From Paenibacillus sp. FSL R7-0337 (lineage in GTDB: Bacteria > Bacillota > Bacilli > Paenibacillales > Paenibacillaceae), in NCBI RefSeq assembly GCF_037969875.1, contig NZ_CP150218.1, positions 1,860,001 to 1,924,000 on the forward strand: a stretch of 64,000 nt of DNA, written 5' to 3'. A program made the translations under genes and the position numbers. Within the stretch, counting starts at the first letter, position 1; each line of letters starts with the position of its first letter. The notes below the pieces were generated by a model, which worked only from the letters and a program-made list of their open reading frames with translations, made no database searches and had not been told where the DNA came from. Below, piece by piece: positions 9,859-54,744 of this stretch.

Positions 9859-9874
9859 TGGAGGGTTCCTTTCT

Positions 9875-37448: not shown

Positions 37449-38792
37449 ATGAATAGCAAACTGAAAAAAATTGCAACAGGCGTACTGGCCGGTGTAATGA
37501 CCTTATCGCTGGCGGCATGCGGGTCTGACAATTCAGGCTCCGGCAATGCTGCGGCTACCAACAGCGGCGGAAACGGAAACAGCGGCAGTGGCAGCAGCAG
37601 CGGCAAAAAGGTAACCATCGAGCTGGCCATCTCCAAAAGCTCGCAGGATTCGGCGTTCGTCGCCCAGGATGTGCTGGATGAGTTCGAACAGAAAACCAAT
37701 ATCAAAGTGAATCTGCAGCTGCTTCCGGCAGAGCAGACCGCCACCGTACTTCAGACCAAGCTGGCTGTCGACGAGGTGCCTGATCTGATTCAATACAATC
37801 TCGCCAGTGCGACTACGGACCTGAATTTGGAGCGTAATTTCGAGATTCTTGATAACGAGCCTTGGGTGAGCCGGCTGCTGAATAAGGATGTGCTCTCGGC
37901 TTACGATCATGTCTACAGCTTCCATTACAGCCAGGATACCGGGATGCAGGGAGTTGTCTATAACAAGGATATTTTCGCAGACCTGGGTCTTGCCATACCG
38001 AAGAATTATGAGGAATTCCTGGCCGTCTGCGAGAAGATCAAGGCCAGCGGCATCACGCCGGTCTTCATGCCGTTCAAGGACAACTGGGCGGCGAATATCT
38101 GGCCGGCGGCGGCTTTTGCCGACTGGGCTGCCAAGAACGAGCCGTCTCTGTTCGAGGACATTAATGCCGGCCGCAAAAAGTGGTCCGATGTTCCCGAATT
38201 CGCCACCTTCCTGGAGCAGCAGTATGAGGTCTACAAGAAAGGCTATACCAACACCGATATTCTCAGCGACAGCTACGATATGGCGGTGGGCAAATTCCTG
38301 AACAAGGAAACCGCGATGATGTTCATGGGCGACTGGCTGATTGTGAACGTGGCCGAGAAAGATCCGAATGTGCATCTGGGCCTGTTCGCCATTCCGTCTT
38401 CTGAAGACGCAAATCTCGGCGCAAGCCCGCTGGGCGGCCAGCTGTTCATCCCTAAGAAAGCCAAGCATATGGAAGAAGCGAAGAAATTCCTGGAGTTCCT
38501 CGCCAGCAAAGAGGTTGCCCAGAAAATGGTTGACAGCCAAGGCTCCGTCTCCAACTTCAGCGATGTGACGACACCGAAGCTCCCGGACTACAAGCAGGAG
38601 ATTGTCGATCAATATATCACACCGAAGAAAACTACGCTGACCACCGATGCTTACATGATCGTGGACCGCAGCGAGCTGTACCGTCTGCTTCAGGATGAGT
38701 TCGCCGGCGGTCTGGACGCTGCGGGCGTACTCAAGGCCTGGGATGAGAAATTCAGCCAGCTAATGAAGGACAAAGGCGTAGAGGGCTTTTAA
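37449..38792 (+). CDS. Extracellular sugar-binding lipoprotein
   Basis: 447 residues from the ATG at 37449, behind GGGGGCG. The lipobox is LSLAAC with Cys24 lipidated, followed by a Gly/Ser/Asn linker. The mature protein has the family-1 solute-binding fold. It is first in an operon with two CUT1 permeases and lies divergent from a YesM/YesN pair and close to the uronate-glycan block, so its ligand may be an uronate oligosaccharide. Positions 38149-38390 are partly duplicated, with frameshifts, at 47211-47448. Confidence 0.92.
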   Translation: MNSKLKKIATGVLAGVMTLSLAACGSDNSGSGNAAATNSGGNGNSGSGSSSGKKVTIELAISKSSQDSAFVAQDVLDEFEQKTNIKVNLQLLPAEQTATVLQTKLAVDEVPDLIQYNLASATTDLNLERNFEILDNEPWVSRLLNKDVLSAYDHVYSFHYSQDTGMQGVVYNKDIFADLGLAIPKNYEEFLAVCEKIKASGITPVFMPFKDNWAANIWPAAAFADWAAKNEPSLFEDINAGRKKWSDVPEFATFLEQQYEVYKKGYTNTDILSDSYDMAVGKFLNKETAMMFMGDWLIVNVAEKDPNVHLGLFAIPSSEDANLGASPLGGQLFIPKKAKHMEEAKKFLEFLASKEVAQKMVDSQGSVSNFSDVTTPKLPDYKQEIVDQYITPKKTTLTTDAYMIVDRSELYRLLQDEFAGGLDAAGVLKAWDEKFSQLMKDKGVEGF

Positions 38793-39749: not shown

Positions 39750-40579
39750 TGAGCTTTTCACGTAAAATGGCCTGGCGCAACTATGTAGTCGAAGGGCTGC
39801 TGATCCTGGCCTCCCTGCTGATTATCCTGCCGCTGCTGATTATGCTGTTCGGAAGCTTCATGACCAGCGCCGAGGTGCTGAAGTTCTCCCTGCGGCTCCC
39901 GGAGAAGTGGAACTTCTCCAACTATACAACGGTCTTCCGTGAAGGGGGACTGGGACGCGCGTTCCTGAACGGGATGTTGATTACCGGCGTCTCCTCTATT
40001 CTGAATATCTTCACCTCGTCAGCGGCCTCCTTCATTCTGGTGCGCCGGGAGACCAAGTGGTCGAATTTCCTGTACATGTTCTTCTTCATGGGCTTGATCG
40101 CGCCGATGTCCACGATCACCACGATCCGTGTCGTGCAGTGGATGGGCTTCTACGGCAGCATCACCAGCGTCATCCTGATCTACGCCTCGCTGAATACGGC
40201 GTTCAGCGTGTTTCTGTACAGCGGATTCATCCGGTCTATTCCGAAGGCGCTGGATGAGGTAGCTTTTCTGGAGGGGGCGAATACATTCGATGTGTTCTTC
40301 AAGATCGTTACCCCGCTGATCGTCCCAGTGAACGCCACCGTAGCGATTATGGTGTTCATGTCCGTCTGGAACGACATTACCATTCCGCTCTATTTCCTGA
40401 CGGACAGCTCGGACTGGACGATGCCGCTCTCAGTGTACAATTTCTACGGCAAGTACAGCCGGGACTGGAATCTGATCTTCGCAGACCTGGTGTTAACTTC
40501 CCTTCCCGTGCTAATCCTGTATATCTTCTGCCAAAAGTACATTGTTAGCGGACTCACTGCGGGTGCGGTGAAGGGGTAG
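39749..40579 (+). CDS. Sugar ABC transporter permease (MalG/UgpE-like)
   Basis: 276 residues with about six membrane spans; the EAA loop ALDEVAFLEGANTFDVFFKI and the C-terminal SGLTAGAVKG are typical. Its start overlaps the upstream stop by one base. The last ~146 codons recur at 47478-47921 with an identical protein sequence and only synonymous base changes, so the gene end serves as the left direct repeat around the RiPP island. A terminator follows. Confidence 0.93.
   Translation: MSFSRKMAWRNYVVEGLLILASLLIILPLLIMLFGSFMTSAEVLKFSLRLPEKWNFSNYTTVFREGGLGRAFLNGMLITGVSSILNIFTSSAASFILVRRETKWSNFLYMFFFMGLIAPMSTITTIRVVQWMGFYGSITSVILIYASLNTAFSVFLYSGFIRSIPKALDEVAFLEGANTFDVFFKIVTPLIVPVNATVAIMVFMSVWNDITIPLYFLTDSSDWTMPLSVYNFYGKYSRDWNLIFADLVLTSLPVLILYIFCQKYIVSGLTAGAVKG
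40108..40579. repeat. Left direct repeat flanking the RiPP island
   Basis: The end of the permease gene matches 47455-47921. By eye I count about fifteen to twenty substitutions over some 465 bp, clustered at the last codons, plus one 9-bp deletion in the right copy near its start. The right copy lies in the same orientation. Confidence 0.85.
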
Positions 40580-40617
40580 TAAGAGTGTGGAGAATAGGTT
40601 TTGTCAACCTGTGATGC

Positions 40618-40669
40618 AAAAGGAGCCATCCCAACAGCCATGAAATAGTTGCTGGGATGGCTCCTTTTT
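40618..40669. terminator. Bidirectional terminator
   Basis: AAAAGGAGCCATCCCA (40618-40633) pairs with TGGGATGGCTCCTTTT (40653-40668). It has A residues before and T residues after, so it ends both the permease transcript and the convergent RiPP operon. Confidence 0.88.
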
Positions 40670-40677
40670 AGTGAAAT

Positions 40678-42507
40678 TCACGTGAGCATTTCCCCCTGAA
40701 TTGCTCGCTCTCTTTGAAAGGCTTCTGCTTCATCAGAAAATAGTTTATAATAAATCCCTCGTTTAACAATTAATTGTTGGTGTGTTCCGCATTCTACTAC
40801 CTGACCTTCATTTAACACAATAATCCTATTAGCATATAAGACAGATGTATACCTATGCGATATGTATACACCTATCTTCCCTTCTATATAATTTTGGAAT
40901 TGCAGAAATACTTGTTTTTCCGATTCCGGATCAAGAAAAGAGCTTGGTTCATCCATAATATATAGATCAGCATCTTTAAAGAAAGCTCTTGATATGGCTA
41001 TTTTTTGCCATTGCCCACCAGAAATTTGAACCCCACCTTCAAAATTTCTACCTAGCTGTTGATCTATTTGATTGGGGAAACTTTTAATTAGTTCATCTGC
41101 ACCAGTAAGTTGGGCCGAATTCCATATTTTAGAGGTATTATCCATCTTTTCGAGGTCACCAAACCCAATATTTTCTCTAACAGTAAAATCAAATTGGATA
41201 AAATCTTGAAATATAACACCAATTTTTTTGTATAATGTATCTTTACTATAATTATGTATTGATATTGAATTAATTAATATTTCACCTGTAAAATCATCAT
41301 ATAAGCCTGTCATTAATTTAATTATCGTTGATTTCCCCGATCCGTTTCTTCCAACAAATGCAACAGAGTCATTTGTTTGTATTTTGAAATTGAGGTCTTT
41401 TAGCGCGTAAACTGTTTGACCAGGATAAATAAAGGAGACATTTATAAACTCTATGCTTTCTATTTTATCCATTTTAACGAAACTCTGCTTTAACAGTATA
41501 TTTTCATAACTTTTTTTACTTTTATTTAGAAATGAGAATAATTCATCCAAGTATAAATTATTCTCGCACAAGGAAATTAATCCTTGAGAGATAGCATTAA
41601 TATTCTGGTTTGTAAGCAATACTGCTTGTACCAAACCATATATACTACCTAAGAGTAGACTCTCTTGAAATGACACATATACAATAATATAAAGAACTAT
41701 CGAGATAAAAAGAGTACTAATTATTTGAAAGAATAGATATAAAACTGTTCGTCTTTTTGATAGGTCTTTATCCTCCTTATAAAATCTATTAAAAATATCT
41801 TTGTACCTAATACTTAAATAGTCATTTAAGTGATATAGTTTAATTTCTTTGAATGCCTTATCATTCGTTAACAAAAAATTAATATAACTTGCTTTCCTTT
41901 GCAATGGAGATCTTTTTCTTTTTGAAATATATTGAATTTGTGCGAACTTCAATAACGAATAGAATGAAAATAAAGGTGACACAAGAAGAATAATCACTAA
42001 CCACCACTTGAAATTCAGTATAATAACAATACTAGAAATCAAAGTAATAATTGAGCTTATAAGATTAATTAATACCTTATATACTTGGATGGGCCGGTCT
42101 ATCGAATCTTGCATAACTCTTCTTAGTTGATTATGAATTTCAGGATCTTCATAATCACGAAGCATAAAATCAGAGGTTTTTGTTACTATTGAAACTTGCA
42201 AGTGGTTTATTAATAATAGCTGATATAACTTTTCAAAGTGTTCAAGAATAGACGTAACAAAGAGACTACAAATCAGAACAAAAATTAAAGGCAGAATTGG
42301 GTATATCATCACGTTGAATGATCGCTCTTCGATTTTCATCACTAAAAATTGAATGGAAAAAAGATTTATTATTGGTAAGAAACCTTTGATTATATAACAA
42401 AAAATAATTAATGAAAAATAACTTCTTTTTGCCCTCCATAATAATTTCCCAAGTTCCGGCCAGTACCGAAATGATGCAAATATAGTTTTGATATTGATCC
42501 CATCCAT
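40678..42507 (-). CDS. ABC exporter (fused membrane and ATPase domains)
   Basis: 609 residues from the ATG at 42507, behind GGAGGG. The N-terminal part carries about six membrane spans (for example YPILPLIFVLICSLFVTSI and LFQIISTLFISIVLYIIVYV). The ATPase domain shows Walker A GRNGSGKST, signature ISGGQ, Walker B LYIMDEPSSFLD and the H-loop region SHRY. There is no N-terminal C39 peptidase domain, so leader removal, if any, must come from elsewhere. It is the last gene of the A+T-rich RiPP operon and the likely exporter of the mature peptide. Codon use is clearly A+T-rich compared with its left neighbour. Confidence 0.9.
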   Translation of the reverse strand: MDGINIKTIFASFRYWPELGKLLWRAKRSYFSLIIFCYIIKGFLPIINLFSIQFLVMKIEERSFNVMIYPILPLIFVLICSLFVTSILEHFEKLYQLLLINHLQVSIVTKTSDFMLRDYEDPEIHNQLRRVMQDSIDRPIQVYKVLINLISSIITLISSIVIILNFKWWLVIILLVSPLFSFYSLLKFAQIQYISKRKRSPLQRKASYINFLLTNDKAFKEIKLYHLNDYLSIRYKDIFNRFYKEDKDLSKRRTVLYLFFQIISTLFISIVLYIIVYVSFQESLLLGSIYGLVQAVLLTNQNINAISQGLISLCENNLYLDELFSFLNKSKKSYENILLKQSFVKMDKIESIEFINVSFIYPGQTVYALKDLNFKIQTNDSVAFVGRNGSGKSTIIKLMTGLYDDFTGEILINSISIHNYSKDTLYKKIGVIFQDFIQFDFTVRENIGFGDLEKMDNTSKIWNSAQLTGADELIKSFPNQIDQQLGRNFEGGVQISGGQWQKIAISRAFFKDADLYIMDEPSSFLDPESEKQVFLQFQNYIEGKIGVYISHRYTSVLYANRIIVLNEGQVVECGTHQQLIVKRGIYYKLFSDEAEAFQRERAIQGEMLT

Positions 42508-42551
42508 ATTACCCTCCAAAGCTTAACCTTCTCCCATTATTTCGCACTAAA

Positions 42552-43709
42552 TCAATCGTTAATGGTAAGTTTTTGACGACGACTTTCCGTATAGATATTC
42601 ATTGGGTTTTCTTCAAGTGTTTTTTTGATCATTTGATGTTTCAAGAGATTAATATTATCCTTTGAAGTATCCGTACCATTAGTTAATATGTAATCTATCC
42701 ATTTGCTTACCCAGTCAAATCCATAATTAAAATCTAGCAGTTTGTTAGAATATATGTTAATGATCAATTGGTCACGATTCTTCATCATGACTTTTGGTTC
42801 AATAGAGGATACAGCATAACGTTGAGTAATTTCTAAAGAGTAGCGCTTTGGAGCTATATGAAGCCCATCAGCTAAATTGTATAAATAATCTATAACAACA
42901 CCGAACTTCTCAGCCCTATCCCTACTCATTCCTTTGTAATGGACCTGTGTTGTTCCAATTTTTATAATATTAAATTCATTACTTTCAAGCCGCTTATCAT
43001 GCGTATATTCATAGATACGTATGCCACTAAATAGACACAACGCAATTCCAACGGTTAACCACGTAATCAGACTTTTCTTCCCACCTCCTCGACGATACGA
43101 AAATATAGTTGCCATTCCATAAAACAATAGAACCGCAGCAAAAATCGATATAATATTTCTAAAGTTTATTAGGTAGGGATTGTAAATATTAAGCACTGGA
43201 GATACATATCTGAATTTTTCGTGTAGCGTCCATGGAATTAATCCAATTGTTAAATATAAAGTAATCAGAACCAGTATTCCTAAACCATGCTTGCGGATTA
43301 CTTCTCCTACCAAAAGACCTGATACAACAGCAAAAAGGCCGGAAAAAAGGGCAATAAGCCCAATATTAAAGTCTGGAACATCCCCAAACCAGATACGTAA
43401 TGTGACCCATATTATTATTATCACAGGTGAAGTTATGATTACTGCTACAATTCCTTGATTAAAAATTTTACGATTGGTAGAGATTATTGACAAAAATACA
43501 AATTGCTCTGCTTGATATCTTTTGCTTAAATTAGCCGCTTGCAGTGCAAACAAAGCAATAAATAATAAATCCAGGCTAATTTTCAAAATTAAATCTTCAT
43601 TCATTTGAAAATTAAAATATACTATTACCATTAAAGAAAACAGGTATATTCCTGTATTGGCCTTGCCAAAGAAAAGAAGCAACCAAAATCGTATTAGATT
43701 TAAGTTCAT
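42552..43709 (-). CDS. Membrane protein with large extracellular or cytosolic C-terminal domain
   Basis: 385 residues from the ATG at 43709 (AAGGGGGAG upstream). About six N-terminal membrane spans (residues ~5-235) are followed by a soluble domain of ~150 residues (FNIIKIGTTQVHYKGMSRDR onward). I do not recognise the C-terminal domain; no HEXXH or other metal motif is visible. The membrane part looks like ABC-2-type permeases. Its start overlaps the previous stop (ATGA), so it is coupled with the adjacent permease and ATPase, probably as part of an immunity or export complex. Confidence 0.65.
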   Translation of the reverse strand: MNLNLIRFWLLLFFGKANTGIYLFSLMVIVYFNFQMNEDLILKISLDLLFIALFALQAANLSKRYQAEQFVFLSIISTNRKIFNQGIVAVIITSPVIIIIWVTLRIWFGDVPDFNIGLIALFSGLFAVVSGLLVGEVIRKHGLGILVLITLYLTIGLIPWTLHEKFRYVSPVLNIYNPYLINFRNIISIFAAVLLFYGMATIFSYRRGGGKKSLITWLTVGIALCLFSGIRIYEYTHDKRLESNEFNIIKIGTTQVHYKGMSRDRAEKFGVVIDYLYNLADGLHIAPKRYSLEITQRYAVSSIEPKVMMKNRDQLIINIYSNKLLDFNYGFDWVSKWIDYILTNGTDTSKDNINLLKHQMIKKTLEENPMNIYTESRRQKLTIND

Positions 43710-44392
43710 AATCTCCCCCTTGCTTTCCACAGACGATTGCTAAAATACATTAGAATTAATGCAATACACAATATAAAAGTTCTTCCAACAAAAAAAGACG
43801 AGTCAAAAAAATGACTGGTAATCCAATCCGGGTTAAACCATATCGAAAAGGCCGGAGAATTCACTGACATCCCTATAACAAGAAAAATAATATTAAATAT
43901 ATTTACGTATACTTGTTTTTTTAATAATAAGCTCAAAAGAGCAGCAATTTGAACGGATATACCAATTGTCGTAAACGAGGTGTAAATTAACGGAAGTATT
44001 AAATCAAAAAAGTTGACTCCATAAAATAACACATGACCTCCGAGAATAAGGATTAAGCAACTGGATTGTGACAGAAAGATAATCCCCCACAAAACACAAA
44101 CTTTACATACAAGATATAGGTAGTTTGAATGCAATTTAGGAATAATGGTTGAATAGATCATCGCTTGCTTATCATCGTCATAAAGAAAAGAATATAGAAT
44201 TGGCATTGCTAAAATACAGAAAAATAATTGTCCGTGCAACAAGAATACCCACATTTCTTTATCCTTTGTACCGGTAGATAAATACAGAAACATAGGTATC
44301 AAAAAAGTGATCAGGAAAACCAAAATGTTATATAATAAATTTTTCTTTAACAACAGTATTTCAAATCGAACTAAAACTTTCACCTCCCTCAC
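43706..44392 (-). CDS. ABC-2-type membrane permease
   Basis: About 228 residues from a GTG at 44392, chosen because it follows the ATPase stop and has GAGGGGG upstream; GTG 44383 is an alternative. About six membrane spans (LVFLITFLIPMFLYLS, LLHGQLFFCILAMPILYSFL, VCVLWGIIFLSQSSCLILI and others) and very few charged residues. It sits next to an ABC ATPase gene, so it is most likely the channel partner. Together with the 392-residue-frame protein downstream it would form a heteromeric transporter, typically for self-protection in peptide operons. Confidence 0.7.
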   Translation of the reverse strand: MREVKVLVRFEILLLKKNLLYNILVFLITFLIPMFLYLSTGTKDKEMWVFLLHGQLFFCILAMPILYSFLYDDDKQAMIYSTIIPKLHSNYLYLVCKVCVLWGIIFLSQSSCLILILGGHVLFYGVNFFDLILPLIYTSFTTIGISVQIAALLSLLLKKQVYVNIFNIIFLVIGMSVNSPAFSIWFNPDWITSHFFDSSFFVGRTFILCIALILMYFSNRLWKARGRL

Positions 44393-44396
44393 TCTA

Positions 44397-45278
44397 TTAA
44401 GGCCCCCTCTCATTATCGGATATATACAGATAAGCATCTTCCAGGTTTGGAGTCTCTAGTGTATATTCCCCATATTTTTCTGGAGGACTATTATCTAGCA
44501 AACGAACTTGCATTAACCCCCTTTTCCTAACAACAGATATGATACGGCTTTCATTACTTAATTGTTGCAACTGCCTTTTATCCACTTCAACTAACCATAT
44601 TTTCCCTTCCACTTTATGGATAGCCTCATCAACACTCCCATTATAAAGACAGCTTCCTTTCTTTAAAATAAGTACATTGTCACAGGTGCTTGAGATATCC
44701 GGTACAATATGCGTAGATAACAATACAATGCGATCTTCCGAAAAACTGTGAAGCAAGTTTCTAAAAGCAATTCGCTCCTTTGGATCAAGCCCCACCGTAG
44801 GTTCATCAATAATTAACAACTGGGGAAGGTTTAACATAGCTTGAGCGATACCAAATCGTTGTTTCATACCGCCTGAAAGTTGCTTGATTTTTTTATGAGC
44901 ATGTTCTTCAAGACCCACTTCAATTAGTCTTTGTGAAATTTCTTCCTGTATTCTTCGTTGACCTATTAACCCCTTTAAAGCAGCAAAATAATTCATGGAT
45001 TCAATGATTGTTGCATCAGGGAAAAAGTCAAAACTTTGTGGAAGATATCCTAACATGGCACGAATTGCATCAGGCTCTTTTCTTAGCGAATATCCAAACA
45101 TACTTACATCGCCCTCGTTAAACCCTAGCAGTGTTGCTAGAATTTTCATTAAGGTAGTTTTACCAGCACCATTATCACCAAGCAAACCAAAAATCCCCTT
45201 ATTAATTTGAAAACTTAACTGATTAATGACTTGATTACTGCCGTATTTTTTACTCAATGCTTCCACTTCAACTGACAA
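44397..45278 (-). CDS. ABC transporter ATP-binding protein
   Basis: 293 residues from a TTG, with AAAGGAGGAAG upstream. Walker A GDNGAGKTT, Q-loop near YLPQSF, signature QLSGGMKQR, Walker B LLIIDEPTVGLD, and H-loop STH are intact. A ~90-residue C-terminal extension (NGSVDEAIHKVEGKIWLVEV) is typical of bacteriocin-immunity and ABC-2 drug-export ATPases (BcrA/CcmA type). It overlaps the maturase gene by 11 bp and precedes the permease genes. Confidence 0.9.
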   Translation of the reverse strand: MSVEVEALSKKYGSNQVINQLSFQINKGIFGLLGDNGAGKTTLMKILATLLGFNEGDVSMFGYSLRKEPDAIRAMLGYLPQSFDFFPDATIIESMNYFAALKGLIGQRRIQEEISQRLIEVGLEEHAHKKIKQLSGGMKQRFGIAQAMLNLPQLLIIDEPTVGLDPKERIAFRNLLHSFSEDRIVLLSTHIVPDISSTCDNVLILKKGSCLYNGSVDEAIHKVEGKIWLVEVDKRQLQQLSNESRIISVVRKRGLMQVRLLDNSPPEKYGEYTLETPNLEDAYLYISDNERGP

Positions 45279-46680
45279 TCATTTCTTCCTCCTTTATCAT
45301 CTTGTTATTAAACAATTTATCTTTATCCTCCTCGTCCAACCTCAAGTATAATCTGATGCAATCATTTATTGCACTTCTAGTAAACTCACAGGAAATTTCT
45401 AGCGGATCTTCTATAGCTCCAGTGTTCTTTAAATTTTCATGTGGGCAATCTCCACCACATAGGTTAATTGCCCAACATTCCCTACACTTTGTTCTTTCTT
45501 CTAGACTAAATTCATTTAATATTTCCTTCTCCCTAAGGCGGGAAACTCCTTCATTCACATTTCCTAGAGAATAATTTTTTTCACTAACAAATCTTTGACA
45601 TGGATACAAATCTCCATGAACATCAACAGCTAGCATATGGGAAGCAGCCCCACAATAATAATGCCGTTTGGAAGATGAATGAACCCTTCTTAGATATTTA
45701 TATATATTTGAGATTTCCCGAGCCTTCTTATACTCCTTACTATGTATTAAAGTCTCAAAATAATTTACCAGTTTGGTGAATTCAAGTGAGTAATCCTCAT
45801 AATCCTTAACATCAAGCATCTGAACTGCAGGATACATAGCAACATTTCGGAATCCAATTTCATTTAAATGTTTTAATGTATAGGTAATATCCAGTTGAAC
45901 CGGTGAGACAGTAGCTCTCGCTGAGATCATTCCATTCTTTCTTAATTTCTCAGTCCTATTAAGAATAAGATCATAGCTGCCTTCTTTATTCTGAAAATAG
46001 CGGTTAAAATCATGAGTTTTCTGATCTCCATCCAGACTCACTTGTATTGCTACCTGATGCTCCATTAAATAGTCAACAACGTCTTTGGTAAGCAAGGTTC
46101 CATTGGTGGTCATACTATACCTTACTCTTTTCCCTGTTAGTTTTTCTTTGCTTTGGACATAAGGAATGATATCCTGAATGAGTTTATAATTAAGTAATGG
46201 CTCTCCACCGAAAAAACAAATGCTTAGTTCTTCCTCCAAAGCTTGATTAAATAAAAAATCTATAGCTTGGGTAGCTGTATCCATGTCCATCCTGCCACGG
46301 TCATTGTATTCTCCATTAACACCATAACAATAAGAACATCTCAGATTACATTCTTGAACCAGCATAAGAATCAGAGAAGAGACCCCGTTTGTCTCTTTTG
46401 TACAAGCACAGGAATCTGTATTAATGTCATCCACTAAATCTTGCACAAGTAAAACTCCTGCTTTCTCTAGCGTAGTAAGTAATTCACTTAACTCTTCCAT
46501 GGTATAATTATTTTTTAGAAGTTGGTAAAGTTCTTCAATAGTTTTCCCGTCACTGTTGCAAATATCTACTATTGTGTCATCGACTTGAAATATCCCGCTA
46601 TTCTCAACATTATATAGATATAAATTATCTTGCTCTTCAAAAAATTTTACAGCTTTAATTTTTATTGGACTATTAAACAT
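45268..46680 (-). CDS. Radical SAM/SPASM peptide maturase (PapB/CteB-like)
   Basis: About 470 residues from the ATG at 46680; a GTG at 46692 sits too close to AAGGAA to be preferred. Residues ~5-80 form an RRE/PqqD-like winged-helix domain (KAVKFFEEQDNLYLYNVE onward) expected to bind the precursor leader. The core motif is ECNLRCSYCYG, with FFGGEPLLN following. The C-terminal SPASM domain has cysteines in YYCGAASHM, LYPCQRF, TKCRECWAINLCGGDCPHE and ISCEFT, enough for two auxiliary clusters. Such enzymes make Cys-to-carbon thioethers in ranthipeptides. The precursor gene lies directly upstream. Confidence 0.92.
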   Translation of the reverse strand: MFNSPIKIKAVKFFEEQDNLYLYNVENSGIFQVDDTIVDICNSDGKTIEELYQLLKNNYTMEELSELLTTLEKAGVLLVQDLVDDINTDSCACTKETNGVSSLILMLVQECNLRCSYCYGVNGEYNDRGRMDMDTATQAIDFLFNQALEEELSICFFGGEPLLNYKLIQDIIPYVQSKEKLTGKRVRYSMTTNGTLLTKDVVDYLMEHQVAIQVSLDGDQKTHDFNRYFQNKEGSYDLILNRTEKLRKNGMISARATVSPVQLDITYTLKHLNEIGFRNVAMYPAVQMLDVKDYEDYSLEFTKLVNYFETLIHSKEYKKAREISNIYKYLRRVHSSSKRHYYCGAASHMLAVDVHGDLYPCQRFVSEKNYSLGNVNEGVSRLREKEILNEFSLEERTKCRECWAINLCGGDCPHENLKNTGAIEDPLEISCEFTRSAINDCIRLYLRLDEEDKDKLFNNKMIKEEEMIVS

Positions 46681-46709
46681 TAATAACTTCACTTCCTTCT
46701 CAAAATATT

Positions 46710-46741
46710 AGAAAGCCTAAGAATTGCTTCTTAGACTTTCT
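46710..46741 (-). terminator. Attenuator hairpin between precursor and maturase
   Basis: AGAAAGCCTAAGAA (46710-46723) pairs with TTCTTAGACTTTCT (46728-46741) with one mismatch and a short loop. On the minus strand it lies after the precursor stop and is followed by AATATTTTG, a weak U-tract. Such hairpins let precursor mRNA exceed maturase mRNA. Confidence 0.65.
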
Positions 46742-46764
46742 TTTGTTTATAGATGAAAATTCAA

Positions 46765-46920
46765 TCAATCCCCATCATTACGAATACACCAACCACTCTC
46801 GTTGTTTCCACAAATAAAGTCAAAAGCATCACAATCTACGCATTTGTCTCTTGCATCGCATGTTATGCAAAACATAGGTGAGACACTGCCACTTGCAACG
46901 ACATTAACAGGTTTAAACAT
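46765..46920 (-). CDS. Ranthipeptide precursor with six CX3D/E motifs (freyrasin/PapA-like)
   Basis: 51 residues, too short for many gene finders, starting at an ATG with AGGAGGT seven bases upstream. The leader is MFKPVNVVASGSVSPMF. The core carries six cysteines at 18, 21, 27, 30, 37 and 45. Each has an acidic residue four positions later: D22, D25, D31, D34, E41 and D49. That is the repeated CX3D pattern of PapA, precursor of freyrasin from Paenibacillus polymyxa, in which the radical SAM enzyme PapB links Cys sulfur to the Asp beta carbon. The adjacent radical SAM/SPASM gene completes the pair. The fifth motif uses Glu. Codons were checked one by one. Confidence 0.9.
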   Translation of the reverse strand: MFKPVNVVASGSVSPMFCITCDARDKCVDCDAFDFICGNNESGWCIRNDGD

Positions 46921-47097
46921 TCGACTACCTCCTATATTTTGGAATTATGTAATACTAAGTTAGTTTAGCTCGTTCGTTCTCTTTTATCTATATATAAAAA
47001 GAATCTTTTTTGAATATTTTGTAAATACCTTTAAATTAATGTATTTTTTTAACTAACAGAGATCATGTTCGGCTTGGTTATTATCAAACGGAATGCA
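46921..47097. promoter_or_regulatory. A+T-rich upstream region of the RiPP operon
   Basis: About 180 bp with no gene. On the minus strand it reads through TTTACA, TTCAAAAAAGATTC and TATATATAG tracts that could form a promoter, for example -35 TTCAAA, 17 bp, then ATAGAT, but no assignment is confident. The right part, from about 47100, changes abruptly to the mosaic pseudogene with high G+C. Confidence 0.4.
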
Positions 47098-47100
47098 TGG

Positions 47101-47921
47101 ACGTAGCGGTTGGTCTCCAACTCCCCCGCATTGCGGGAAGGAGAAAAGGCTCCGGCATTCGCAGCATCTGCATCTGTTAACGGAATCCATCTGAGCAGCA
47201 GCCTGGGCCGTCCCTGTTCGAGGACATTAATGCCGGCCGCAAAAAGTGGTCCGATGTTCCCGAGTTCGCCACCTTCCTGGAGCAAACAGTATGAGGTCTA
47301 CAAGAAAGACTACACCACGACATTCTCAGCGACAGCTACGATATGGCAGTAGGCAAATTCCTGAATCAAGGAAACGGCGATGATGTTCATGGGCGACTGG
47401 CTGATTGTGAACGCGGCCGAGAAGGACCGAATGTGCATCTGGGCCTGATTGCCCCGATGTCCACGATCCGTGTCGTGCAGTGGATGGGCTTCTACGGCAG
47501 CATCACCAGCGTTATTCTGATCTACGCCTCGCTGAATACGGCGTTCAGCGTGTTTCTGTACAGCGGATTCATCAGGTCTATTCCGAAGGCATTGGATGAG
47601 GTCGCTTTTCTGGAGGGGGCGAATACATTCGATGTGTTCTTCAAGATCGTTACCCCGCTGATCGTCCCAGTGAACGCCACCGTAGCGATTATGGTCTTCA
47701 TGTCTGTCTGGAACGACATTACCATTCCGCTCTATTTCCTGACCGACAGCTCAGACTGGACGATGCCGCTCTCAGTGTACAATTTCTACGGCAAGTACAG
47801 CCGGGACTGGAATCTGATCTTCGCAGACCTGGTGTTAACTTCCCTTCCCGTGCTAATCCTGTATATTTTCTGCCAAAAGTACATTGTTAGCGGACTTACG
47901 GCTGGAGCGGTGAAGGGATAA
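47101..47921 (+). pseudogene. Mosaic pseudogene: kinase, binding-protein and permease fragments
   Basis: Three fused pieces on the plus strand. (1) 47103-47205 matches the sensor domain of the kinase at 35461-37257 (ALREGEKAPAFAAS; NGIHLSS). (2) 47211-47448 matches binding-protein codons around 38149-38390 with small insertions and deletions that break the frame. (3) 47455-47921 matches the 3' end of the permease at 39749-40579; the encoded 146 residues are identical. Open frames of up to 192 codons exist but are chimaeric, with no ribosome site or membrane N-terminus, so no functional product is expected. It is a collapsed second copy of the YesM/ABC region. Confidence 0.88.
47455..47921. 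repeat. Right direct repeat flanking the RiPP island
   Basis: Same orientation as 40108-40579. The substitutions I can count are all synonymous (for example CGG/AGG for Arg, GCG CTG/GCA TTG for Ala-Leu), so this copy diverged as a working gene before it was truncated. Confidence 0.85.
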
Positions 47922-47938
47922 TGAATTCCTCTAAACAC

Positions 47939-47982
47939 AGAGCAGCGGTCCTCCCATAGCCGGAGAACCGCTGCTCTTTTTT
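47939..47982 (+). terminator. Rho-independent terminator
   Basis: AGAGCAGCGGT (47939-47949) pairs with ACCGCTGCTCT (47967-47977), followed by six T residues. It is the same stem as at 13518. It faces rightward; the GH59 gene is convergent and ends about 20 bp beyond. Confidence 0.88.
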
Positions 47983-48002
47983 ACTTTATAGTTAGTTTGA
48001 AA

Positions 48003-51000
48003 TTACATATGCTCCAGCAGATTGAAGATGACCTGTGCGCTCTCGGCGCGGGTCATAGTCGCCTGCGGCGCAAATTGCTGATTGCCGCGTCCCTTGATCA
48101 GCCCTGCCTGATCAGCGGTGCTTACAGCATTCTTAGCCCAGTCACGAATCAGGGTATGATCACTGAACGAACTGGAAGCTGATTCACTGCTGCTCTTGCT
48201 TCCCTTCAAATGTTCATATGCCCGGACTATCATTACTGCCATCTCCTCACGGGTAATGAGTTCATTCGGAGCGAAGGCGTCCTTGCTGCGTCCAAGCACG
48301 ATGCCCGCCTCATTCACTGCCGCTACGGATTCGGCATACCACAGCCCCGAGTCCACATCAGCAAATATGGATGGGCTTCCCGTCTTCAGCCCAAGCGCAC
48401 GTGCAATCATCGCGGCGAATTGTGCCCTTGTGACTTCCCCTAGCGGCTGGAACTCGGAGCTGGAGATGCCTTCAATAATATGTTTCGCAGCCATAGATTT
48501 AATAACGCCGCTGGCCCAGCTGTTGCTGCTGACATCCGAGAATGTCTTGTCATATTCGAGTACCGCATACTGGCTGAAATGACTTATTCCGGCGCTAAGC
48601 TTACTGTCTGTCAGCCTGCCGCCCATGTATTCAAGGGCACCATTGGCAGCAATATAGTAGATACCCAGTACGCTGCGGTTAGCACCAGGATCAACCGTGA
48701 AGGTAAGCGTCAACGGCTCATTGAACGTTGCGACCGGTACGGCAGTTCCATCCGCAGCAACAGTTTCCAGGCCAAAGCGGATCACATCACTTGCCGCCGA
48801 TAACCGGACGGACCCGCTCAGCGCAGGGTTATTGATCAGCTGCTCCGCAGCTGTTCTCGCTGTCTTCACTGCGGAGAGCCGGATTGCCATTCCCTCTGGC
48901 TGTCCTCCAGCACCGGCTGTCTTTTCCCGGATGCTCTTCAGCACTTCCGGACTCAGATCAACAGTAAATGTGTGCCAGGCAAGATGCAGGGTGTTCTCTC
49001 CTATAATTCCGGCTAAACCGGCTGGAAGCAGTACCGATTCTGTAGCATCTGTAAGCTGAACGGTTATAGCCCCACCAGCCGGTGCCGGGAAATCAGCCGC
49101 TGTAAGAACCTTCTCCTTCTGCGGCGAAGGGGATGGTGCTACTGTTGGCGAAGGCGTTGCAGCCGGTGCTGATATCCATACTGGCACTTCTGCAGGAGCC
49201 GGTGTTGCTGTCGGTACCGGAGTTGGCGCCTTGGTTGGATTCACTTCCGGCGGCTGCTCCTCTTCTCTTACTGTGACCGTTCTTGTCACTTCAGCAGCCG
49301 CATTGCCTGCTGTATCAGTCACATTATAGTGATAGACATAGCTGCCTGAGGCCGAAGTGTCCAGCGCCGGCACTGTCTCCCCACCCTGCGTAATCGTTGC
49401 GACGATACGCTCTGTAATATCACCGTCTCGATCATCCGCCGCTGTAGCTCCGGCATCTGCATAGCTTGCACCCTTTTCCAATTGAACAGTTGCTTCACCC
49501 AGCAGAGTAATTACCGGCTTCGTTACATCCGGGTCCAGCGCAACTACGACCCGTCTGGTTACCTCAGCAGCTGTGTTGCCTGCCTTATCAGTGACATTAT
49601 AATGGAAGGTATAGATATCTTCCTTGGACGTATCCAGCTCCGTCAAGCCATATACTTCACTAGTCACCGTTGTCGTAATACGGCCAGTGATATCTCCGTC
49701 CTGATCATCATAGGCCGTAGCTCCGGCATCGGTGTATTCTGCACCGATTGGCAGATTGACTGTCGCCTCGCCGATGAGGGTAATAACCGGCGGAACCGTA
49801 TCCGTTACCGGCAGTGTGATTGTTCCGCTGGCAGTGGCTTCTGCCGCTGCTTCTCCCTTGCTTAGGGTTACCGAGAAAGTGAAGCTGCCCTCTGTATCCT
49901 CAGTGGCTGCCTGGAAGGCAGACAAGGTAATGTCCCCCAGGGTAACCCCGGTGCCCTTGAAGCCCGGCATCCCGCTAATGGTCTGCGCCAGCCAGCTCCG
50001 TACAGCTTCTTCACTATTCGCTTGCGCCTTCTTGACGCTGTAAGACGCTCCTTCAATTATGCTCTTCGCTTCAGCAACAGCTTGCTCATTCTCCACACTG
50101 GTCTTATCTCTTGCTACAGCCAGATAGCTGATTAGCGAGGCTTGGCTGAACGTATTGTTCACCGAGTATTTCACCGTACCGTTGACCGGCAGTGTGAAAT
50201 TGTATTGAACACCCGCCCCGCCCGCACCGGCAACAAGGCCTGTCTTCACCGTCTCGGTCACAATCTCTCCCTCAGCGTCAGGATAGCTGAGTGTAATATC
50301 CATCGTCCGGTTCAGGTTATTCCACCAGTCCAGATGATAGGAAGTAACCGTGTATTTGCCAGCACTCAGAGGCAGATTATAGACCAGCGGCGTATTCTTC
50401 GTATTCGAGCTGTACACTCCGGTCTGGGCTTTATTGGTGGTGACTACATCCCCGCCCAGCCCTTTGACACTATAGTTTGTGCCTGTATTCGTATGTCCCC
50501 ATACAGTATCCCCTGTGGACAGTTGATCCGCCTTGTGATTCAGCAGGCTGTCGCCTGCGAGATCCCGGATGGCTGTATACGGCGGGGTGTCGCTATCTCC
50601 GGCAAGACCCATGTCCAGGAAGTACACCAGCCCCGCTGGAACCACTTCAACATAGGCAATGGTCTTCAGGCTTCCATAGGTGCCGGTGACCGCTACCCGT
50701 TCATATGGAGTATCAAAGCTGACCGCATCGAGATTCCACTTCACCGCCACCTGTGTGGTCGTACCGTCTGCAAGTGTGGCCTCTACCTTGGCCGGAAGCT
50801 CCGGCACTTGACCTGCGTAGGTAGCCCTATCTGGAATGGACGCAAGCTCTCTCACATCTCCCAACAGCAGAAGATTAAGGGCAGAAGACAGACGTTCCGC
50901 CAGCTGCGTTGCCCCTTCCTGGTCCAGCCGGTAGAGAACCGGATCATTCAGTGCTGCCTGGGCGGTATCCAGGGCATTCTTGAACATCCTCCAGTCTTGC

Positions 51001-54000
51001 TCCGGGTAGTCGTCTTCCCTGCTGACCGCAACAGCAGCACTCACCGCCTGCTTAAGCTCCGCTGTATCCGGGTTGCCTGCGCCTTCCCCGCCAATGACCG
51101 CTACGGAATCCACAGCGAGGGTTCCGCTCAGCACCTTGATCTGAACCGTATGCTCACCGTAATTCAGTCCACGGATCGTGAAAGTCTGGTACAGCTCCTT
51201 CGCTGCGCCCGCAGCGCCCGAGACTACCAGCGTCTCACCGTCCACCACGGCTTCCAGCTTCGCTGATCCGTCGTTCGGCCCCAGAATATCAAGGCCCGTG
51301 CCGGTAAAACTATACTTCAGCACCGCACCAGCGCCTTGGCTGGTAGAGAGAGAACGCTGATAGACATACATGCCTTTTCCATTCTCATGGGCCCAATTGC
51401 CTTCATAGACCAGCTTCGCACGAGGGACTTCTGCCAGATCAGTCATCTCCAGATTATCCAGTTGCTCGGAGTAATAAGGGGTGTGACCATCTACTTTCTC
51501 TACCTTCAGATTATCGAAGCGGACATGATAGAAGCCGCTGGCGAGCTGCACGCGCCCGGATAGCTTCGCATTCGAATCGGTATAGGAGGCAAGCTCCACC
51601 TGATCCAGATATGCAGTGACCGTGTCACCAGCTACCTGAATGGCAATGTTATGCCACACGTCATATGCCGTATTGAAATCAGGAATCTTCACACCGCCGG
51701 TGCCGGTTGCTGCATTGCCGCTGGCCACAACGGTCCCGCTGGACAGTAGCTGCCAACCGCCATCGAACCAGAACTTGAGCGCATAAGGGGTGCCGTTAAT
51801 CGTCTGCGGTCCGCCCTGGTATCTGGCTCCAACCGCTGCGTAATTGTTCCCTCCATACGTGCTATTCTGTTCAAAAGACACATCGGCACTCGCCTTATAA
51901 TTGGTCCAGCGGTAATCCCCGATAGCAGTAACCGGGTCACCACCATTCCAGGCCCCTCCTACTCCGGTGGTCGTCTGGTCCAGCTGCTGCCGCAGCACAT
52001 AGTTATCCGTGCCATCGACCAGATACCCCTCGAACGCTCCGTTAAGATCCTGCGTATAACGCGGCATGACGCTGTAAGGCCCGCCGCGAGAGCTGACATA
52101 GCTCTGCTCGCCGGTAATCTGTCCGCCCTCTCCAATCACGGGAACGCTCCGGCTGCCGTAATTGAAGTCATCCGCATACAACCACTGGTCTTCCGTATTC
52201 TGCACGGACCCTGTGGCATCGGTATCCAGCACGATACGTTCGCCCTCCACCGGAAGCGGTGTGCTGAACCCTTCCTTATTGCGGTTATCCAGCGTGGTGA
52301 CAGTGACAATAGAGAACGGCTTCACACGGATGGTATACACACCGCTGCCGTCTGCCTGAACATCTCCAATATCTTTCATATAGTTGCTGTTAAAAGCCTG
52401 ACCTGACTCCGCCGCACGGGTCTCCCATATCTCCAAGGAAGGATTGCCGGTATAGGCCATGTTGACAGCCTGAAGCTTGTAGATCTTCTCAACCTCGCTG
52501 TCATTGATAATCACAGTCGAGAAATCCTGCTTGTCAGGTGAAGCCAGGGTCATATAGCTCGGAGTCCCGTTGCGCCCGCTTACCGGGTTCGTGCCGGTTG
52601 CTCCGGTGTAGCTCGCCTGGGGAACGGCCCGCCAGATGCCTGCCGTATTGTCTTCGTTCTCCCAGCCGGTCTTGGCGAACCCGCCAAAATGCTTCAGGAC
52701 CAGCAGTCCCGCGTCATAATGAATGAAGCCCGACCACGGGTCGCGTGCGCTGAGCAGCTCCTTGAACGAGTACTGCCCGCCTTCATAGAAGGAGCCGATC
52801 GCCGGCTGATAGATGAAATGCGTCCGGCGCGAATTCACAAAGCCCTTAATAATGGTATTGCCCATCTCCAGCGGTCCGCCGGTGCCGCCGATCCCCGTCC
52901 CGGGCACAGAAGGGTCCTTCATATTATTGTGAGGACGGAAGGCCGAATTACTGAAGGTGGCCTGTGCTTCACTATTCCAGATCTCCTTGTCGAACTCATC
53001 CGCCAGCCGCTTGAAATTGCCTTGGCTGTCGTCATCGGTGTTGTAATGATACCCGGCAGCGGCCACAGCTTCCCGCAGTGACAGGTCATTCACCAGCGCA
53101 TCGCCGAAGGAGCCGATGCCTACTTCATCGGAAATAACCAGCTTGATGCTGTGATACAGTTCCTTTTCCTGCTCATCCTTGAAGTCTGACGCATCCGCTT
53201 TGACCCTCTCGCCATACTCCTTCGTCCAGGCCAGATCCGGCGCGTGCTCATTGATATGGGGATTCACATAATCCACCATATAGCCGTACTGGCGGTAAGC
53301 AGCCAGTATGGTCTTCTTGTACCAGGTATAAATCTTGTCGTTATTGTTAGCCCAAGCCGGAGCATTCCAGCGCAGGAAGCTTACCTTGACCGCCGGATTG
53401 ACAGCCTTGGCATCGGCCGCAAGCTGGAAGCCGGGGTGCCGGGCTACATTGGCCTCTTCATCTTCCGTGCGCATCGTTGAAGGGTCGGGACCAGTAGAGT
53501 TATTGCGGTCATTGCCCATCTCAATCTTGACATGGTCGATCAAGGGGCGGTCGCCCCCGAACAGAATCTGCAGCAGCTGCGCATAGGCCTCCGGCTGCTC
53601 GGACTTATAGTCCATCAGCAGGGCGCTGGTACTGTTGCCGCTAAGTACGCCGAAGCCCTTGAAGGTCAGCCCGTTAACATTCCCGTCCTTGATGTCCTTG
53701 CCGTCCAGCTGAATTCGGACCGTAGAAGCAGCCGTCTCGCGGGCATTGTCTAACTTCTGCTTGATCGCGCCCTTGGCAACAGCGAACCAGCTAAGGATCG
53801 GCTTCTCCCCGCCGACATTGGCATAGGTTAGTGTCATCGAACTGCTGGTGTCAATATCTCCAGGAACGGTAAATTCACCGGAGATGAACTTCGTCTTGTT
53901 CGTGTTGAACGGTGTAAAAGAAATCGTCTGGGCGACTCCTGCCGTATTCACATATTCCAGCCGTGGCTGAATGGCCCGGTCACGGGTGCCGTACCAGTCA

Positions 54001-54659
54001 TAGAAACCGCTGCTAAGGGTATATACTCCGGATTGAAGCGCTTTCAATTTATAGATAATATCGTTGCTTGCAGGGTCTGCGCGCAGTCCTACCACCCATA
54101 GGCTTGGATCAGTGGCGGGATCGGTGAGGTTGCCATTCTTAGAATTTTTCACTTTATGGATGGAATCATCGAATCCCCAGTCAGTGGTTCCAGCGACATA
54201 TTTCTGGTCCGGCGACGAGTTAAGCAGTTCACTGCCAGTCAGTGTTCTGACCGCTTCATACAGTGGTGAGGGAGCCGGTCCATAGCCAAAAGAATCGCCT
54301 CCTCTGCCGCTGTCCACGAAGTAGACGAGCGGACTGTCCGCTGGCGGAATGACTTCCACACTTGCGGTAACCGGGCCGCCATTTGCAGTTCCGGTAACTG
54401 CCACCGTATCATACGGCACATCGAAGGTATCTTCTCCGATATTCCAGCTCACCGGCGCCTCCTGTCCTCCAATACGGACACTGGCTGGCAGTGTGGTCCC
54501 TGCTGCCGACTTCGCGCCCATATAAGCCGCAGCATAGACCGGATCAGCGGCAGCCGCAGAGGCTACAGGCATACCAAGTGCAGGGAACATTCCGGCTACA
54601 AGTGCAGTCGATAACAGCACGGAAAATAGCCTTTTCTTAACGCGGTTCTTTCTATTCAC
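48003..54659 (-). CDS. Giant SLH-anchored GH59-like glycoside hydrolase
   Basis: About 2,218 residues from the GTG at 54659 (GAGGAGATGAGATA upstream). In order: signal peptide (LLSTALVAGMFPALGMPVASA); Ig-like segment; a CBM-like unit (LVYFVDSGRGGDSF); a GH59-type barrel (FKGFGVLSGNSTSALLMDYK) with candidate acid/base Glu471 in NPHINEH and nucleophile Glu564 in IWNSEAQ; a lectin-like beta-sandwich; a helical FIVAR-like region; an Ig-like segment and second CBM-like unit (LVYFLDMGLAGDSD); two HYR/DUF5011-like repeats (DTVPPVITLIGEATVNLPIG); a Pro/Thr linker; a ~200-residue domain; and three SLH domains. GH59 enzymes cleave beta-galactosides. It would act at the cell surface before import by the adjacent ABC transporter. 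Confidence 0.8.
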   Translation of the reverse strand: MNRKNRVKKRLFSVLLSTALVAGMFPALGMPVASAAAADPVYAAAYMGAKSAAGTTLPASVRIGGQEAPVSWNIGEDTFDVPYDTVAVTGTANGGPVTASVEVIPPADSPLVYFVDSGRGGDSFGYGPAPSPLYEAVRTLTGSELLNSSPDQKYVAGTTDWGFDDSIHKVKNSKNGNLTDPATDPSLWVVGLRADPASNDIIYKLKALQSGVYTLSSGFYDWYGTRDRAIQPRLEYVNTAGVAQTISFTPFNTNKTKFISGEFTVPGDIDTSSSMTLTYANVGGEKPILSWFAVAKGAIKQKLDNARETAASTVRIQLDGKDIKDGNVNGLTFKGFGVLSGNSTSALLMDYKSEQPEAYAQLLQILFGGDRPLIDHVKIEMGNDRNNSTGPDPSTMRTEDEEANVARHPGFQLAADAKAVNPAVKVSFLRWNAPAWANNNDKIYTWYKKTILAAYRQYGYMVDYVNPHINEHAPDLAWTKEYGERVKADASDFKDEQEKELYHSIKLVISDEVGIGSFGDALVNDLSLREAVAAAGYHYNTDDDSQGNFKRLADEFDKEIWNSEAQATFSNSAFRPHNNMKDPSVPGTGIGGTGGPLEMGNTIIKGFVNSRRTHFIYQPAIGSFYEGGQYSFKELLSARDPWSGFIHYDAGLLVLKHFGGFAKTGWENEDNTAGIWRAVPQASYTGATGTNPVSGRNGTPSYMTLASPDKQDFSTVIINDSEVEKIYKLQAVNMAYTGNPSLEIWETRAAESGQAFNSNYMKDIGDVQADGSGVYTIRVKPFSIVTVTTLDNRNKEGFSTPLPVEGERIVLDTDATGSVQNTEDQWLYADDFNYGSRSVPVIGEGGQITGEQSYVSSRGGPYSVMPRYTQDLNGAFEGYLVDGTDNYVLRQQLDQTTTGVGGAWNGGDPVTAIGDYRWTNYKASADVSFEQNSTYGGNNYAAVGARYQGGPQTINGTPYALKFWFDGGWQLLSSGTVVASGNAATGTGGVKIPDFNTAYDVWHNIAIQVAGDTVTAYLDQVELASYTDSNAKLSGRVQLASGFYHVRFDNLKVEKVDGHTPYYSEQLDNLEMTDLAEVPRAKLVYEGNWAHENGKGMYVYQRSLSTSQGAGAVLKYSFTGTGLDILGPNDGSAKLEAVVDGETLVVSGAAGAAKELYQTFTIRGLNYGEHTVQIKVLSGTLAVDSVAVIGGEGAGNPDTAELKQAVSAAVAVSREDDYPEQDWRMFKNALDTAQAALNDPVLYRLDQEGATQLAERLSSALNLLLLGDVRELASIPDRATYAGQVPELPAKVEATLADGTTTQVAVKWNLDAVSFDTPYERVAVTGTYGSLKTIAYVEVVPAGLVYFLDMGLAGDSDTPPYTAIRDLAGDSLLNHKADQLSTGDTVWGHTNTGTNYSVKGLGGDVVTTNKAQTGVYSSNTKNTPLVYNLPLSAGKYTVTSYHLDWWNNLNRTMDITLSYPDAEGEIVTETVKTGLVAGAGGAGVQYNFTLPVNGTVKYSVNNTFSQASLISYLAVARDKTSVENEQAVAEAKSIIEGASYSVKKAQANSEEAVRSWLAQTISGMPGFKGTGVTLGDITLSAFQAATEDTEGSFTFSVTLSKGEAAAEATASGTITLPVTDTVPPVITLIGEATVNLPIGAEYTDAGATAYDDQDGDITGRITTTVTSEVYGLTELDTSKEDIYTFHYNVTDKAGNTAAEVTRRVVVALDPDVTKPVITLLGEATVQLEKGASYADAGATAADDRDGDITERIVATITQGGETVPALDTSASGSYVYHYNVTDTAGNAAAEVTRTVTVREEEQPPEVNPTKAPTPVPTATPAPAEVPVWISAPAATPSPTVAPSPSPQKEKVLTAADFPAPAGGAITVQLTDATESVLLPAGLAGIIGENTLHLAWHTFTVDLSPEVLKSIREKTAGAGGQPEGMAIRLSAVKTARTAAEQLINNPALSGSVRLSAASDVIRFGLETVAADGTAVPVATFNEPLTLTFTVDPGANRSVLGIYYIAANGALEYMGGRLTDSKLSAGISHFSQYAVLEYDKTFSDVSSNSWASGVIKSMAAKHIIEGISSSEFQPLGEVTRAQFAAMIARALGLKTGSPSIFADVDSGLWYAESVAAVNEAGIVLGRSKDAFAPNELITREEMAVMIVRAYEHLKGSKSSSESASSSFSDHTLIRDWAKNAVSTADQAGLIKGRGNQQFAPQATMTRAESAQVIFNLLEHM

Positions 54660-54744
54660 TATCTCATCTCCTCGGGTATAAAAATACCTGGCAAACTGCA
54701 AAAAGCTGCAACTGCCAGGCTGTTACTCAACTAACCTCAATCCA

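Follow-up and report, generated by a model that had tools for sequence, protein, structure and literature searches.

A stretch of 64,000 nucleotides from Paenibacillus sp. FSL R7-0337 (NZ_CP150218.1, positions 1,860,001 to 1,924,000; referred to as the window) carries a cluster that we consider, with a probability of roughly 85%, to be of the freyrasin type. Its PapB-family enzyme would close six thioethers on a small precursor peptide, of which five would be attached at Asp beta-carbons and one, the fifth in order, at the gamma-carbon of Glu41. The freyrasin-like ranthipeptide proposed for this locus in an earlier sequence-only reading is well supported in silico by the PapB-family neighbour, by homologues that keep the Cys/acid pattern and by coding signals.

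The papA-like precursor gene lies at 46765..46920 on the minus strand and encodes 51 residues with six cysteines, as the sequence-only reading had claimed without giving a strand; the plus-strand reading of 46765-46920 is interrupted by a stop. The cysteines at positions 18, 21, 27, 30, 37 and 45 are followed at +4 by D, D, D, D, E and D, again as claimed, and the test for freyrasin-type motifs accordingly counts five CX3D and one CX3E. The motifs described as interlocked (CITCDARD and CVDCDAFD) proved to be two overlapping CxxCDxxD pairs. A putative leader covers approximately residues 1-16, and the core carries the six CX3D/E motifs. An acid stands at +4 of 6/6 cysteines, compared to 0-2 of the six for every other downstream offset between 1 and 8 in the same 51-residue peptide, and 15 of 1,000,000 shuffles of the 34-residue core reproduced the six-of-six pattern. 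Open reading frames of 25-120 aa served as further controls. The window contains 575 of them, and among the 76 with at least four Cys the precursor has six CX3[DE] motifs and the runner-up two. The outside control comprised 9,202 such frames around other radical SAM enzymes (loci L011-L089), where the highest count was three among 1,020 frames with at least four Cys. These loci derive from a related-locus scan in which 80 of 397 relatives were kept; except for P. ottowii (L010), their enzymes are 28-33% identical, and L011-L089 were used as ORF control. Based on the shuffle count and the ORF controls, the six-motif pattern of the precursor is not due to chance.

The Shine-Dalgarno sequence AGGAGGT (46927..46933, minus strand) is located 6 bases 5' of the precursor ATG and is also present at locus L129 in genome G240, the sole other genome found in this analysis with the CX3E form. 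Between the two genomes, the precursor gene shows three synonymous and no non-synonymous codon differences. Both observations point to a coding frame, and not to the untranslated one for which the sequence-only reading had allowed.

The next gene after the precursor (45268..46680, minus strand) encodes the maturase, with 470 aa from the ATG at 46680 or 474 aa from a GTG at 46692. It scored 412.5 bits against the PapB-family model NF047865, above the cut-off of 340. For PapB from P. polymyxa, the cluster cysteines are given as C119/C123/C126, C352/C370/C421 and C408/C411/C417/C440 (PMC10470005), and the exchange of R372 for Ala is reported to abolish activity (PMC9413430). In our alignment, the numbering of the PapB of locus L121 fits that of the published P. 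polymyxa PapB at the ten cysteines and Arg372. All ten, comprising three radical SAM and seven auxiliary-cluster cysteines, are retained in the window maturase (C115, C119, C122; C347, C365, C416; C403, C406, C412, C435), as is the essential arginine (R367), all in the 474-residue numbering. The AlphaFold2 model of the maturase reached a pLDDT of 86.6, and its best solved match is 5wgg, the structure of CteB, the thermocellin maturase. At the N-terminus of the model, residues 9-77 form four short strands and three helices, presumably a leader-binding RRE domain judging from the topology; the Pfam PqqD match of the maturase was found only at an E-value of 0.2. Sequence identity amounts to 39-40% with PapBs of the PapA type and 59% with the P. 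ottowii type.

Regarding the class, assignment as a SCIFF ranthipeptide was rejected (258.2 bits for the maturase versus a TIGR03974 cut-off of 425), and a sactipeptide, which would carry S-Calpha links, appears unlikely as the maturase scored far below the RumMC-family cut-off (128.2 bits versus 720). The precursor itself scored 26.5 bits against the freyrasin-family precursor model NF037957, or 22.3 bits in the six-frame search, and does not reach the cut-off of 30; we therefore base the label “freyrasin-type” on the maturase and on the pattern of motifs. Among ten relatives scanned with this model, three of the PapA type passed with 55-65 bits and the other seven missed the cut-off with 11-29 bits; L136 passes in the six-frame search with 34.6 bits. 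In a word-based search, the window precursor as query retrieved one relative (P0001), and a query of 14 precursors retrieved 13.

A second radical SAM/SPASM gene is located at 7544-8737, in a row of genes (6540-11215) together with a GFO/IDH/MocA oxidoreductase and two proteins for which the thresholds applied gave no match. For this second radical SAM protein, 25 families were listed, none of them with a score over its cut-off.

PapB genes over the cut-off were detected in 15/394 same-family genomes (own included), with 16 genes in total, and a Cys/acid precursor lies directly upstream of 15/16 of these. No precursor was found beside L133, whose enzyme is shortened and has an incomplete radical SAM Cys motif. 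Homologues do keep the Cys/acid pattern, the lack of which would have spoken against the sequence-only reading by its own account. Within the class, the precursor profile matched in 2/398 genomes, one being the window's own; the profile is insensitive, since G232, which has a four-Cys precursor, was sampled yet remained unmatched. In the order of L023 (Lachnotalea glycerini), 4/295 genomes contain an over-cut-off PapB, three of them with a recognisable precursor. A Cys/Asp-rich match to the precursor profile in G199 (L134) contains a stop, in a genome with no over-cut-off PapB, and was not counted.

An alignment of 14 Bacilli precursors, from which the clostridial ones were excluded, revealed ten invariant columns: Met, Asn at position 6, C18, C21, D22, D25, C27, C30, D31 and D34. 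The invariant core is thus CxxCDxxD twice, i.e. two overlapping pairs. Subtype i (PapA; L121, L122, L124) adds one ring before and one after this core, subtypes ii (window, L129, P0001, L125-L128) and iii (L130-L132, L136, P0123, P0125) continue it with two rings, and subtype iv (L119, L120, L123) has no added rings. In the four-Cys, PapB-linked precursors of subtype iv, Asp follows the last Cys at X5 (and at X0) instead of X3, and in two of L119, L120 and L123 the second Cys has Asp at X4; judged by their sequences, these three are natural departures from CX3D. The clostridial PapB-linked precursors L174, L175 and L176 contain 3-5 Cys, with CX3E at the third Cys of L175.

In 9/9 distinct precursors of subtypes ii and iii, the fifth Cys is followed by Glu and never by Asp, with CX2E in three, CX3E in two and CX4E in four, whereas each of the nine has CX3D at the remaining five positions. 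Left out of this count were P0126 (44 aa, stopping right after the Glu) as well as P0122 and P0124, which are extended versions of L127/L128 and L125. The Glu variant at Cys37 noted in the sequence-only reading is therefore a kept feature of position 5, but its exact CX3E spacing is not, the nearest relatives having X2 or X4. A different carbon attachment at this Glu, as had been suggested, fits expectation but is not new, because attachment to the gamma-carbon of Glu by PapB is published: on PapA with Asp-to-Glu changes, PapB is reported to form S-Cgamma links (PMC8172795; PMC9413430). In vitro, it is described as accepting CXnD with n of 0-6, and Glu, and as favouring CX3D over CX0D/CX6D where motifs overlap (PMC9413430).

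The evidence on the origin of the Glu position points in two directions. In the enzyme tree (16 rows), subtype ii is grouped at 100/99 support, and the deepest split separates ii + iv from i + iii at 94/92, which is below the mark for firm support and carries a long-branch warning; as this split separates ii from iii, it disfavours a single origin. Both membrane proteins encoded downstream of the maturase, by comparison, were matched in 6/6 subtype ii loci and 3/3 subtype iii loci (L130-L132), and matches were absent from three subtype i loci, three subtype iv loci and L133 (16-18 kb stretches in each case). The membrane proteins thus accompany the nine Glu-bearing loci tested and 0/7 others, which favours a link between ii and iii. 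We lean towards a dedicated Glu staple having evolved, in which the gamma-carbon chemistry of PapB would be used in a secreted peptide for one ring of X2, X3 or X4 next to five rings fixed at X3, exploiting the tolerance of the enzyme. If the size of one ring is indeed evolved, the in-vitro tolerance of PapB would already be exploited in nature to vary a loop on the two-pair core.

A small Cys/Asp-rich metal-binding protein with two CxxC pairs, adjoining a radical SAM gene by accident, is very improbable: CITC and CVDC do resemble metal-binding pairs, but neither the +4 acid rule of the precursor nor the adjoining of such a precursor in 15/16 loci of the maturase family is in line with this explanation, which was set aside on the acid rule and the maturase partner. 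The main doubt within the freyrasin type is whether Cys37 is linked, as its partner slides; since the spacing of ring 5 is unconserved, this cysteine may remain unbound or have a different partner. The product would then have five rings, with Cys37 free or engaged in a disulfide or as a ligand and Glu41 present for another reason. We regard this as unlikely. The Glu slides across X2, X3 and X4, but the spacing of the five CX3D motifs is constant in 9/9 precursors, which speaks for five rings, as does a review reporting PapB to be strict for X3 in full PapA (PMC8172795), whereas the fifth Cys with a Glu within 3-5 residues is kept in 9/9 distinct precursors and the reported in-vitro range of PapB covers both the other spacings and Glu (PMC9413430).

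For the preferred six-ring product, we propose the following route. The short leader (M[FL]xxxN...) would be bound by the N-terminal domain of the enzyme, and radicals would form on the side-chain carbon adjoining each carboxylate. As published for PapB, each radical would be trapped by a Cys thiolate bound to an auxiliary cluster. This would yield the overlapping rings C18-D22/C21-D25 and C27-D31/C30-D34, and then the single rings C37-E41 and C45-D49. The calculated monoisotopic mass of the full precursor, Met included, is 5550.37 Da, which six thioethers would lower to 5538.27 Da. No protease was recognised in the cluster with Pfam/NCBIfam, and we therefore propose that the leader is cut by another enzyme of the cell.

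The precursor gene comes first in the cluster and is followed by the hairpin and by the genes for the maturase, the ABC ATPase, membrane proteins 1 and 2 and, last, the ABC exporter. The hairpin between precursor and maturase (46710..46741, minus strand) consists of 14 pairs and a T-rich tail. The motif scan found one such element versus 0.3 expected, and its fold has a z-score of -5.72, with 0/200 shuffles equally stable; a stem-loop was also predicted in the precursor-maturase gap of 14 folded relatives, there without shuffle controls. The hairpin is probably an attenuator, which would keep the precursor in surplus over the enzyme. A scan of 40500-48100 against Rfam matched nothing. The sigma-70-like promoter scan of 46500-47200 gave one weak plus-strand site, below the 2.7 from shuffles, and for this reason no promoter is claimed.

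The end of the maturase gene is overlapped by the gene for an ABC transporter ATPase (44397..45278, minus strand; PF00005), which is 71% identical to its counterpart in the P. ottowii cluster. Membrane protein 1 (43706..44437, minus strand), with matches in subtypes ii and iii, is probably the permease of this ATPase, and membrane protein 2 (42552..43730, minus strand; alignment A3) is probably a permease with a C-terminal soluble domain. Neither had a Pfam/NCBIfam match at an E-value of 1, and no immunity family was matched; a fold assignment for membrane protein 2 was discarded because the model was too poor (pLDDT 56). The last gene (40678..42519, minus strand) encodes, according to its domain matches, an ABC exporter with fused permease and ATPase, which is 61-63% identical in relatives and likely exports the peptide. 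No peptidase domain was matched in it with Pfam/NCBIfam.

The cluster forms an AT-rich island spanning 40678-46920, with a G+C content of 28-35% in 1-kb bins compared to 51-55% in the flanks and 47-50% in the bins straddling its ends. In six relatives, the site lies between the sugar-transport operon and a gene related to the large one at 48003-54701, and the cluster is missing between those flanks in the 18-kb stretches compared. Compared to G240, the cluster bins of the window are 97.7-99.0% identical, while the left flank (30-41 kb) shows 91.6-94.6% and the right side 82.8-92.0% (49-54 kb) or 93.7-95.0% (55-60 kb). Differences at fourfold sites amount to 2-12% in the cluster genes versus 21-25% in the adjacent operon, and the cluster proteins of the two genomes are 97-99% identical. 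Since the island is more alike in the two genomes than its flanks, fourfold sites included, it was moved or exchanged recently.

On its right, the island is bounded by a partial and broken copy (47204-47921) of the sugar ABC operon on its left, in which a binding-protein piece is fused with a permease end; the counterparts are at 38139-38384 and 40089-40578. The island sits between two repeats, as these sequences include a direct repeat of 300 bases with 95% identity. In G202 (L165, 6840-12294), where the site is empty, the gap between sugar operon and next large gene contains four ORFs of 323-389 aa, three of which start similarly.

Judging from the gene neighbourhood, a role in competition between bacteria would be likeliest because of the exporter and the putative self-protection genes: secretion of the product would fall to the ABC exporter, and protection of the producer to the ATPase with the two membrane proteins. 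It is less likely that the product is instead a signal or surface peptide and not antibacterial, with the three-gene ABC unit acting as a second exporter or a sensor and not in immunity. Quorum sensing by ranthipeptides derived from SCIFF is the subject of a paper cited in a review (PMC8326336), and membrane proteins 1 and 2 matched no immunity family; both points are in favour of a signal, but the mobile island and the patchy occurrence of PapB (15/394 genomes) suit a competition factor slightly better.

In the literature searched, which did not include Hudson 2019 and Precord 2019 (the two primary freyrasin papers, which may already list Glu-bearing homologues), two features appear to be new: a two-pair core that stays fixed while the additions to it vary, and a conserved Glu whose spacing drifts. 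Class, enzyme and Cys-Glu chemistry had been known before, and QhpD is described as making Cys-Glu S-Cgamma links naturally (PMC11002830). PapB is in use as a peptide-stapling tool, and work with engineered substrates has shown that it tolerates Glu and further spacings (PMC9413430). If confirmed, a natural family that keeps the Glu with varying ring size would point to selection for this tolerance, and it would supply PapB homologues pre-adapted to Cys-Glu links. The family would also help to widen NF037957, which misses the window peptide and 7/10 of the relatives scanned.

Freyrasin (PapA/PapB, Paenibacillus polymyxa) shares with the window cluster six Cys with an acid at +4, an adjoining SPASM enzyme of the PapB family that contains the ten cluster Cys and the Arg, a similar leader start and the CxxCDxxD two-pair core. 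The comparison with PapA-type precursors drawn in the sequence-only reading was only broadly right: the order of rings is unlike that of PapA (single, pair, pair, single in PapA; pair, pair, single, single in the window), and because the additions flank the core differently, the rings of the two peptides do not correspond one to one. It further differs by the Glu at position 5 and an enzyme of 39-40% identity, and three PapA-type loci had no match to membrane proteins 1 and 2. The cluster of the P. ottowii type (L010 = L125, L126-L128; enzyme P0004 from Paenibacillus sp. LX16) has the same six-gene order, with maturase and ATPase 59% and 71%, membrane protein 1 47-49%, membrane protein 2 40-41% and exporter 61-63% identical; the flanks of these loci are unlike the window's, with a best flank match of 31% identity. 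Its precursor has the same length of 51 aa and the same ring order, but CX2E at position 5 where the window has CX3E. The 52-aa precursors of Paenibacillus/Lysinibacillus (L130-L132, L136, P0123, P0125) share the order pair, pair, Glu, Asp, and in L130-L132 the ATPase and two membrane proteins follow as well; they differ by CX4E at position 5, and the L130-L132 enzymes are 38-39% identical to the window's and do not form its nearest branch. P0126, a CX4E relative, bears the NCBI name “freyrasin family ranthipeptide”. CteB (SCIFF, thermocellin maturase) provides the best solved structure match (5wgg) within the ranthipeptide class, but is reported to form a Cys-Thr S-Cgamma link (PMC11002830). 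QhpD of quinohemoprotein amine dehydrogenase is a related SPASM enzyme for which natural Cys-Asp S-Cbeta and Cys-Glu S-Cgamma links are described (PMC11002830); its substrate, however, is an enzyme subunit and not a small peptide of the window's kind.
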